From positions 1-46,987 of the forward strand of contig PFSJ01000003.1 of assembly GCA_002789015.1 (NCBI GenBank): DNA of 46,987 nucleotides. The letters run 5' to 3'. Both the position numbers and the translations under genes were made by a program. Below are positions 6,310 through 46,925 of the stretch, in pieces. The notes beneath the pieces were generated by a model. The model had not been told where the DNA came from. It was given only the letters and a program-made list of their open reading frames with translations, and made no database searches. The stretch is from a candidate division WWE3 bacterium CG_4_9_14_0_2_um_filter_35_11. Its GTDB lineage: Bacteria; Patescibacteriota; WWE3; 2-01-FULL-39-13. The first letter of the stretch is position 1; the number at the start of each line of letters is the position of its first letter.

Positions 6310-7857
6310 TTATAATTCAAACAAATCACCGTGGAAAAAACCTTCTTGTTTATAATGAATCGCCGTCTTATATAAGTCCTCGTATTTAGACGCAACTTCT
6401 GTCCAGGAAAAGTTCTGTCTAATCGCATTTTCTTGTATTTTTCTCCAAGTTTCTTTATTCCTGTATGTTTCAGTAGCACGAACTAACTGTCCATAAAGTG
6501 ACCAACCATCAAAATCCTTAAATTTAAAGCCAGTACCGTTTAAAGTTGCTGGGTCAAAATCAGTAACAGTATCATCTAAACCACCGGTAGCTCGTACGAT
6601 CGGCACAGCACCATATCTCATAGCTTCCATTTGAACAATTCCACATGGTTCAAACCTAGAAGGCATAACCATCATATCTGCACCGCCAAAAACAAGCTTT
6701 GGCAGTGTAAAATTTGGGAATGTGTGTACACCAACGATCTGTGGAAATTTCTTAGCAAGTCTTTGTGCAGCTTTCTCATAACCATTGTCTCCAGAGCCAA
6801 TCAAAACAAATTGAGCATTAAAGTCTTTTAAAAACTTTTCAAGAACTTCCAAAAGCAAATCAACGCCTTTTTGTTGATCTAAACGTCCAACATATCCAAT
6901 TAATGGAACTTCGGCTTTTTCTTTTAAACCAAATTCTTTTTGCAGGCTTAACTTATTTTCTGACCTTGCGTCAATAGAATTGATGTCAAAATTAGCTGGC
7001 AATAAAGGATCAGTTAGAGGATCAAACTTCTCATAATCAATTCCATTTATTACTCCAAATAATTTAGACCTTAGTTCAGTCAGTAACTTATCTAATCCCG
7101 AACCATACTCCCTAGTTAAAATTTGTCTTGCGTACCCATTTGAAACTGTATTGACTAAATCAGAGTAAATAATACCTCTTCTTAAAAAATTTAATGTTTT
7201 TAGTCGCCCACTAAAAAATTTAGGAATTTGAGATTTGCCGTCATCAAAATTCAATTCGCTACTTGGATCCACTGACTTTCCTTGAAAATGGATATTATGA
7301 ATGGTCAGCACGGTAGCAATATCTTCAAAAAATGGTGACGTTCTATATTTTGTAGCAACAATATTTGGGACAAGTGCAGTATGCCAGTCATGAGAATGAA
7401 TTATGTCTGGCTTCCAATCTAGTTTTTCAGAAATAAATTGCAAAGCTCCATAAGATAGCAAAGCCCATCTTACGTGATCATCTGAATAATTGTAAACATT
7501 AGACCTTTTTTCATAATATTCCATGTTTTCCAGGAAATACACGATGATTCCATCTTCCGTTACATGTTTTCTTATATTACAAATCAATTCAGTAGGTTTA
7601 CCATCTCCTTCGGCATATCCAGTAGGAACAGCCAAACCTTCAAAAACCATCTCCATTGGAAATTGTTTTTCATCAATAAAACTAAACCTTGGCATAAAAA
7701 TTCGGACATCATGCCCTTTTTTTAATAATGATTTTGATAAATATGCTATTACGCTGCTTAGCCCGCCTACATTAGAAAATGGAGTAACCTCTGCACCGAT
7801 ATGTAAAATTTTATATTTTGGTGAAGATTGACTTGAGGAGTTTAAAGGCTTTTTCAT
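6310..7857 (-). CDS. glgA: Starch/glycogen synthase (GT5), second paralog
   Basis: KILHIGAEVTPFSNVGGLSSVIAYLSKSL...RFEPCGIVQMEAMRYGAVPIVRATGGLDDTV. Confidence 0.92.
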   Translation of the reverse strand: MKKPLNSSSQSSPKYKILHIGAEVTPFSNVGGLSSVIAYLSKSLLKKGHDVRIFMPRFSFIDEKQFPMEMVFEGLAVPTGYAEGDGKPTELICNIRKHVTEDGIIVYFLENMEYYEKRSNVYNYSDDHVRWALLSYGALQFISEKLDWKPDIIHSHDWHTALVPNIVATKYRTSPFFEDIATVLTIHNIHFQGKSVDPSSELNFDDGKSQIPKFFSGRLKTLNFLRRGIIYSDLVNTVSNGYARQILTREYGSGLDKLLTELRSKLFGVINGIDYEKFDPLTDPLLPANFDINSIDARSENKLSLQKEFGLKEKAEVPLIGYVGRLDQQKGVDLLLEVLEKFLKDFNAQFVLIGSGDNGYEKAAQRLAKKFPQIVGVHTFPNFTLPKLVFGGADMMVMPSRFEPCGIVQMEAMRYGAVPIVRATGGLDDTVTDFDPATLNGTGFKFKDFDGWSLYGQLVRATETYRNKETWRKIQENAIRQNFSWTEVASKYEDLYKTAIHYKQEGFFHGDLFEL

Positions 7858-7881
7858 AACTTTCTGTTATTCTATCACACT

Positions 7882-7941
7882 AAAAAACCGCCTCTCCATA
7901 AACAAGTGTCCTGCCCATCACCTGCTTTGAAAGAAGCGGTT
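7882..7941 (-). terminator. Intrinsic terminator in the leader of glgA2 (near-symmetric)
   Basis: Minus AACCGCTTCTTT...GGAGAGGCGGTTTTTT: 12-bp stem (GU allowed) then a U-tract, ending about 25 nt before ATG 7857. Confidence 0.75.
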
Positions 7942-8121
7942 TTTTATTACCTTTACTTTATATCCGAATGGTTTTTCTTCGAAGGAATAAAGATAAAACC
8001 CTTTCCGTGAGGAGGATTGGAGGCAGTCAATTTTTAAGGATAATTGAATAATTCCAGATAACCAACCCCTGATGACCACCTGTCTCTCAGAAAGGATTCT
8101 ACCTTCATTTAGCAGTCCTAT
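7882..8121 (-). ncRNA. Structured leader or small RNA upstream of glgA2 (class unknown)
   Basis: Consensus promoter upstream. AAGGUAGAAUCCUUUCU pairs with GGAAAGGGUUUUAUCUU over about 17 contiguous bp; further inner stem GGGUUGG/CCAAUCC; ends at an intrinsic terminator. Confidence 0.5.
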
Positions 8122-8127
8122 AGCGAA

Positions 8128-8156
8128 ATAGTATAATCATCAGGAGGTTATGTCAA
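8128..8156 (-). promoter_or_regulatory. Consensus sigma70-type promoter
   Basis: Minus TTGACA-17 bp-TACTAT. Confidence 0.75.
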
Positions 8157-8173
8157 GTATTTTCATACTTAAG

Positions 8174-8207
8174 TGGGGGTAGCCCCCGTTTTTGAAGGGC
8201 TACCCTC
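8174..8207. repeat. GGGTAGCCC/GGGCTACCC palindromic repeat, copy 1
   Basis: gggggtagccc ... gggctaccctc inverted repeat immediately 3' of the 8211-9167 gene. Confidence 0.75.
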
Positions 8208-8210
8208 ATA

Positions 8211-9167
8211 TCATGCAGACATTAAGTGTTGTCTGAATTGTTTTACTAAATCTTCTTCGTTCCTGTTAGCGAGATCTCTCATCAAAACCTTGTCATCAAC
8301 TACTTTAAAACTACCTATTTCTTTTGATGGAACAAAAACTATGTCGGTGTTCACCAACACTCCAATATTGGAATCTTCACGATTTTGTACAGGAGTAAGT
8401 CTTAGCTCACTTTTCCATATTTGCATATCTTCTGGATTTGCATAAAAATGAAGCTTAGTAAAAGGCTTGATCGAAAAATGCAAAGATAGACCTGCGAATA
8501 AAGTGAATGCATATTCAAGATCCCTACTCATTGCAGTATCCTTGACTTTTCTTGCCAATTCTATTAAATCAGAATAATCGCTCTTATAATATCTGACATT
8601 AACATCATTCAAATCTAATGATTCATTCTTAGCTTCAATCACAGGGTTATCAATTACAGTAGAACTCTGACTAACTTCAGTGCTCATGATTTGCGATGAA
8701 AAAGAGTTACTATTCGTGGTGACTTGTGCTGCTTCTGGAGCAACCGGCCTAGTGTCAATTTCATTAAATGTCGGCCCTCTCAAGTCTTGAGATTGAAATG
8801 GCTTATCTTCTTTCAACCAATCCATACCAGGGACTTCAGGAACTTCAGAAACTTTATTTGAAGTTGAAATATAACGAGTTGTAGACACAGAAGGTGATGT
8901 AAAGACATCATTGTCTATTTCTACGTTTTTATTTTGATTAGCACTCACACTATCTAAGTTGCCGACTGTAGGATTAGCACCACCAAAACCTCCTGCATTA
9001 AGAAAGTCTAATATCTGGTCTTTAGTGAAACGATGCCTCCCTGACGCAGTTCGCATAGATTGGATTTTCCCGTCTTCCATATATCGATACAAAGTGCGAA
9101 GGCTTACGCCTAAAATATCTGCCACTTGGGTTGAGGTGTAGAGTTTATCTTTTAATTCTATTGACAT
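8211..9167 (-). CDS. MerR/excisionase-type HTH DNA-binding protein with a low-complexity linker and uncharacterised C-terminal domain
   Basis: LYTSTQVADILGVSLRTLYRYMEDGKIQSMRTASGRHRFTKDQILDFL. Confidence 0.8.
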   Translation of the reverse strand: MSIELKDKLYTSTQVADILGVSLRTLYRYMEDGKIQSMRTASGRHRFTKDQILDFLNAGGFGGANPTVGNLDSVSANQNKNVEIDNDVFTSPSVSTTRYISTSNKVSEVPEVPGMDWLKEDKPFQSQDLRGPTFNEIDTRPVAPEAAQVTTNSNSFSSQIMSTEVSQSSTVIDNPVIEAKNESLDLNDVNVRYYKSDYSDLIELARKVKDTAMSRDLEYAFTLFAGLSLHFSIKPFTKLHFYANPEDMQIWKSELRLTPVQNREDSNIGVLVNTDIVFVPSKEIGSFKVVDDKVLMRDLANRNEEDLVKQFRQHLMSA

Positions 9168-31980: not shown

Positions 31981-32009
31981 GGGTAGCCCCTGCTTCGCAG
32001 GGGCTACCC
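31981..32009. repeat. GGGTAGCCC/GGGCTACCC palindromic repeat, copy 2
   Basis: gggtagcccctgc-ttc-gcaggggctaccc, perfect 13-bp arms; then a second hairpin tgcaggc-gga-gcctgca at 32013-32029. Confidence 0.9.
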
Positions 32010-32334: not shown

Positions 32335-35325
<2,991 letters not shown>

Positions 35326-45366: not shown

Positions 45367-46826
<1,460 letters not shown>

Positions 46827-46925
46827 AAAACGTCATGCTTACGCATAACGTTTCCTTAATTACCTAAGGTAAATTCTTTTCACCATTCAAAAACCGATAT
46901 ATATTGCTGACTATTAAATTATTAA

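Follow-up and report, generated by a model that had tools for sequence, protein, structure and literature searches.

The intergenic region in front of glgA2, a starch/glycogen-synthase-like gene, raises the question of whether its structured sequence belongs to that gene as a leader or constitutes a gene in its own right. An earlier note on this DNA had read it as a riboswitch- or attenuator-like leader, or alternatively as a 6S-like RNA. The window, that is, the whole stretch of 46,987 nucleotides that was analyzed, is contig C24 of a 31-contig genome of 750,652 bases. On its minus strand, an HTH_17/MerR-type gene is followed by the RNA stretch, glgA2, a GH57 gene (6304-4757) and a kinase-like gene (4760-2982). 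The window also contains the 16S and 23S rRNA genes (32336-35325 and 45368-46828, minus strand), which share a strand and are separated by about 10 kb with intervening tRNAs. A REP-like palindrome, GGGTAGCCC-N-GGGCTACCC, was counted as 19 hairpins and 81 half-sites genome-wide; one hairpin (8177-8205) is placed directly upstream of the RNA promoter, and other sites include window positions 31981, 32212 and 35661, position 11436 of L147 and position 7256 of L177. Comparisons with related genomes suggest that the stretch is probably a gene for an independent structured small RNA that occurs in one order of WWE3/Katanobacteria, and we judge glgA2 to be its downstream neighbor and not its cis target. 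The features of the locus are as follows:

8211-9167, minus strand: gene for an HTH_17/MerR-type DNA-binding protein, the upstream neighbor; a homolog also adjoins the RNA in genome G005
8128-8156, minus strand: predicted RNA promoter, by sequence consensus, with TTGACA (8156-8151), a 17-nt spacer and TACTAT (8133-8128)
7882-8123, minus strand: full extent of the predicted small RNA (about 240 nt), with no conserved ORF
7990-8105, minus strand: domain D1, a long hairpin in which 26-29 pairs are conserved and a purine is bulged, in five of five genomes of family f1 and only in that family
8068-8075, minus strand: unpaired asymmetric loop of D1, UCAUCAGG, directly after an invariant GGUGG
about 7882-7946, minus strand: domain D2, the 3' hairpin with outer stem AAAACCGCUUC/GAGGCGGUUUU, ending in UUUUUU (7887-7882), present in G005 as well as in the five f1 genomes
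7903-7924, minus strand: apical stem of D2, CAGGUG (7924-7919) / CACUUG (7908-7903), with the loop AU-GGGCAGGA (7918-7909)
7869-7877, minus strand: putative extended -10 element of glgA2, TGATAGAAT, downstream of D2 and 11 nt upstream of the start codon (ATG at 7857)
6310-7857, minus strand: glgA2 (PF08323 and PF00534), the downstream neighbor

For the 242-nt strand, a folding energy of -76.1 kcal/mol was obtained, as compared to -56.9 +/- 4.8 kcal/mol for dinucleotide shuffles (z = -4.0, 0 of 200), while the signal for D1 and its flanks alone is weaker (z = -2.1). In D1, 90.8% of the cells in the alignment of the five f1 genomes are paired and two-sided changes were observed at 14 of 26 pairs, counts that come from five sequences only, two of them close, and from a structure that was picked after viewing the MAFFT alignment. 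The covariation score was 0.554, as compared to 0.246 +/- 0.043 for shuffled alignments (0 of 500 as good), and controls in which the structure was slid along the alignment scored at most 0.276, with at most 6 two-sided pairs. RNAalifold, run unaided, recovered the same stems for both domains and added to D1 the helix UGG/CCA together with an 8-nt one-sided loop. Given the slid controls and the unaided prediction, we do not believe that the after-the-fact choice of the D1 structure alters the conclusion. The asymmetric loop of D1 contains UYAU in four of the five genomes. For D2, 96.3% of the cells at 18 pairs are paired (0 of 500 shuffles as good), with two-sided changes at three pairs, one of which was seen as A-U, U-A, G-C and C-G. 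The covariation in relatives that the earlier note had proposed as a check was thus found in both domains. The 17 contiguous pairs that it had described in the long hairpin are present, G·U pairs included, whereas in place of its GGGUUGG/CCAAUCC helix the relatives support a lower stem that is longer and includes GG/CC and UGG/CCA.

Among the wobble cells, 30 G·U were counted versus a single A·C (binomial p = 3e-8), and the structure is therefore that of an RNA transcribed from the minus strand. The covariation of D1 and D2, the unaided RNAalifold prediction and the G·U excess show that the secondary structure is under selection, as is to be expected of an independent small RNA. An invariant segment is found in D2, where GGGCAGGACACTT, which covers the loop and stem, is unchanged in all six genomes while the surrounding intergenic sequence aligns poorly; neither the loop GGGCAGGA nor the 3' stem strand CACUU has changed across these genomes.

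The near-consensus promoter noticed previously, TTGACA-17-TACTAT, is present on the minus strand, with an overlapping TATACT readable slightly upstream of TACTAT, and would place the 5' start of the RNA near 8121-8123. Taken alone, a simple scan for such sites does not exceed chance (6 sites found versus 5.3 expected). The arrangement TTGAC(A/T)-17-TAnnnT was recovered upstream of the structure in six of six genomes, that is, this one and its five relatives, as a consensus match in each, and each of the six was equaled by 1-22 of 300 shuffles. It is this recurrence across relatives that makes the RNA promoter credible, not the score of a single site. In G002, an extra hairpin-rich stretch of about 90 nt (L003, about 1276-1380) is inserted between the RNA promoter and D1. 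The predicted transcript of about 240 nt has its own promoter motif and no conserved ORF, in agreement with the ORF-less transcript proposed before.

We searched for the element in related genomes. By DNA search, the complete element was identified in G001, at 85% identity, and matches to its 3' end were obtained in three other members of family f1 (G002, G003 and G004). The order HTH gene, promoter, D1, D2 and glgA2 is shared by G001-G003; G004 has the promoter, D1, D2 and glgA2 in the same order, with the HTH match on a different contig. A search with the loop pattern identified a further copy in G005, from another family (f2) of the same order. This copy consists of D2 without D1, is preceded by a TTGACA-17-TATAGT promoter and is located about 330 nt after rplL of the rplJ-rplL pair, with a convergent HTH gene facing it. 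No same-strand gene was found within the approximately 1.5 kb fetched downstream of D2, and no GlgA2 match was obtained in this genome at E <= 1e-30. The argument for an independent locus is drawn from this single genome, which keeps D2 but not D1.

Of 45 genomes of the class, those with a strong match to the D2 covariance model (at least 70 bits) were the five of f1 and G005, and no others; when 380 genomes were sampled evenly from the phylum, strong matches were again limited to the drawn members of this six-genome set. G006, from a third family of the order (84% complete), contains no strong D2 match. The phylum-wide matches below about 35 bits that were inspected are ordinary terminators that do not carry the GGGCAGGA loop, and opposite-strand self-matches of D2 score in the same range. 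One candidate, in G026 (L043, loop TAGGGTAGGA, E 4e-5), was left as an uncertain member, with no consensus promoter seen upstream. The D1 model matched the five f1 genomes at E of about 2e-19 or better and gave no convincing match outside this family (best other E 0.03). A scan of about 85,000 genomes for the exact pattern returned four Patescibacteria records, three of which are named WWE3, and one Spirochaetales coding match; where the D2 core is matched exactly in Spirochaetales and in viral contigs, the match is inside a coding frame and forms no hairpin. Within the window, the element is single-copy.

The strongest of the alternatives is that D2 is a conditional terminator in a cis leader of glgA2, whether riboswitch, protein-binding leader or attenuator, with D1 sensing the signal. 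In each of the five f1 genomes, the RNA directly precedes glgA2 and shares its strand; a promoter is present, a terminator-like hairpin ends the RNA in most of these genomes, and D1 contains conserved bulges. But the putative extended -10 element of glgA2 intervenes between D2 and the start codon. The site scan returned it as a promoter-like site, TG-TAGAAT, and the motif is located 6-11 nt before the glgA2 start in all five f1 orthologs, downstream of D2 in every case; in the class, 21 of 29 glgA2 orthologs, among them those of all five RNA carriers, have it 4-11 nt upstream of an in-frame start. Throughout this genome (loci L146-L194 and the window), TGnTAnnnT peaks sharply 6 nt before the ATG (39 of 457 open frames, versus about 1 per position further upstream), with further peaks at 7 and 9 nt, which indicates that leaderless transcription is widespread in this genome, as far as promoter motifs can tell.

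The HTH and glgA2 genes are also adjacent across much of the class in genomes that have no RNA between them, often with shorter gaps, and this synteny is therefore older than the RNA. In the simplest reading, the RNA was inserted between two genes that were already neighbors, on the upstream side of the glgA2 promoter. While five of five f1 copies precede glgA2, the f2 copy is an orphan, with no gene to control in cis. In addition, no exclusive pairing between D1 and D2 of the kind expected of an antiterminator is seen in the minimum-energy or centroid fold, and the invariant D2 loop is unexpected for a plain terminator. The conditional terminator of a GlgA-GH57-kinase operon proposed in the earlier note is thus not supported, given the downstream extended -10 element, its class-wide occurrence and the copy in G005, and we consider a cis leader unlikely. 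Read-through into glgA2, some control in cis or a leader role are possible, and nothing requires them.

For the preferred reading as an independent small RNA, the following mechanism may be envisaged. The sigma-70-type promoter would produce an RNA of about 240 nt that folds into two hairpins. D2 would be the core, as it is common to both RNA-bearing families, carries the fixed GGGCAGGA loop on the CACUU stem strand and ends the transcript. Its exposed loop would bind a protein or pair with a target RNA in trans, whereas D1 would be an extra, structure-constrained arm of f1 that stabilizes the RNA or serves as a second binding arm. Action in trans through the D2 loop is a tentative proposal, to which we give somewhat less than even weight. 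No target above chance emerged: the D2 loop is complementary to the decoding region of 16S rRNA over 10 pairs at most, which is typical of shuffled loops, and the genome-wide search for complements of the loop gave nothing persuasive.

Alternatively, the RNA could be a clade-specific housekeeping-like RNA, either a protein-bound particle or a global regulator, that is bound through the invariant loop of D2 and belongs to bacteria in which leaderless-type promoters are numerous and a signal recognition particle (SRP) is not detected; we regard this as rather improbable. The SRP pathway appears to be missing from Katanobacteria: the SRP RNA (RF00169) gave no match in the 45 genomes of the class even at E <= 1, the SRP54 domain gave no match over the cut-off in the same genomes (14 of 14 control genomes were positive), and no Ffh/FtsY domain over the cut-off was found in the class. 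In a limited literature search, no paper was found to state that the pathway is absent from Katanobacteria. It is unlikely that the RNA is itself the SRP RNA or its replacement, as neither an RF00169 match nor an SRP54/Ffh/FtsY partner was detected in the class.

It is also conceivable that the stretch is only a terminator or structured 3' UTR of the upstream HTH gene, with no function in trans. The HTH stop codon in G001 is about 10 nt from the RNA promoter, with no intervening terminator, so that D2 could end HTH transcripts, and at least five T are present at the end of the stem in four of the six D2 hairpins. But a clear T-tract is missing from the other two, G003 and G005, compensatory changes maintain D1, and the RNA of G005 is on the strand opposite to the HTH gene. 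Moreover, the plain terminators matched phylum-wide by the D2 model lack the GGGCAGGA loop, which is invariant here. The explanation is thus very improbable. The terminal hairpin and TTTTTT (7887-7882) of the earlier note are indeed present, 24 nt upstream of the ATG at 7857, but their interpretation as a terminator and nothing else does not agree with the invariant loop. We therefore rejected a plain intrinsic terminator, given the invariance of this loop in six genomes and the weak T-tract in G003 and G005; D2 may terminate transcription too.

Even less probable is a diverged 6S RNA, that is, an open-promoter mimic that binds RNA polymerase. In favor of it, the hairpin of D1 is long and has internal bulges, a separate promoter precedes the RNA, and no other 6S RNA was found in the genome. 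But RF00013 matched neither the stretch, at E <= 10, nor anything else in this genome or in any of G000-G006, which weighs against the 6S-like RNA suggested at first. The 6S architecture of a closing stem, an open central bubble and a terminal stem is not seen in D1, where the pairing is almost uninterrupted, with an 8-nt loop on one side, and it is D2 that is conserved most widely. Below-cut-off candidates from another family of the class differ from the RNA in sequence and architecture. In the class, 6S-like matches were obtained only in G013 and G018 (39.6 and 33.2 bits, cut-off 46.4; L220 1501-1658, plus strand, and L221 1501-1656, minus strand); these loci are unlike D1 or D2 and are probably diverged 6S RNAs. 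Finally, a DNA element, such as a protein-binding palindrome or a recombination or repeat element, has next to no probability: the stretch adjoins a helix-turn-helix gene and has a REP-like palindrome family beside it, but the 30 G·U versus one A·C, the strand-asymmetric model scores, the promoter in all relatives and the single copy in the window are at odds with it.

The Rfam search at gathering level, run on the whole genome, placed no family on the stretch, and at E <= 10 the stretch gave nothing above noise, in line with the impression at first reading that it follows no known riboswitch consensus. Elsewhere in the genome, a LOOT RNA (RF03000) was identified at L183 2949-3068 (minus strand, 79.9 bits). 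The RNase P RNA at L182 6658-6995 (minus strand) scored 68.7 bits versus a cut-off of 100, and most members of the class are below this cut-off; diverged forms of CPR RNase P RNA have been reported (PMC8172020), and the low scores are in line with this.

Judged from its sequence and conservation, the RNA represents a new structured family in one WWE3 order, of a general kind that is already known. Very little seems to have been described about regulatory RNAs of candidate-phyla bacteria, and a limited search of open papers found no small RNA described for WWE3. The analysis defines a family that is supported by covariation, with an alignment of six members, two covariance models and a well-defined loop for tests. 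In addition, it illustrates that a separate RNA gene is easily mistaken for a riboswitch when it precedes a gene of the leaderless type.

Riboswitch and attenuator leaders resemble the RNA in that a structured region and a terminator-like hairpin are located just upstream of a metabolic gene, but in this case a promoter motif of the downstream gene follows the hairpin, and in one relative there is no gene behind the element. With 6S RNA (RF00013), it shares a long imperfect hairpin, its own promoter and a comparable length, but it has no covariance-model match and no large central bubble, and its conserved core is a separate 3' hairpin. Like the orphan structured RNAs discovered by comparative genomics, LOOT (RF03000) among them, it is defined by its conserved structure, although LOOT is matched elsewhere in the genome and no Rfam family matches the RNA stretch. 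Pairing of a small RNA to Shine-Dalgarno sequences would be less useful in a genome with many leaderless-type promoters. As compared to those independently transcribed bacterial small RNAs that combine a functional loop with a terminator hairpin, it differs in that no target was found, no Rfam family matches and the distribution is limited to one WWE3 order, but it has in common with them a sigma-70-type promoter, a short ORF-less transcript, a terminal hairpin, a short invariant unpaired segment and compensatory changes in the stems.
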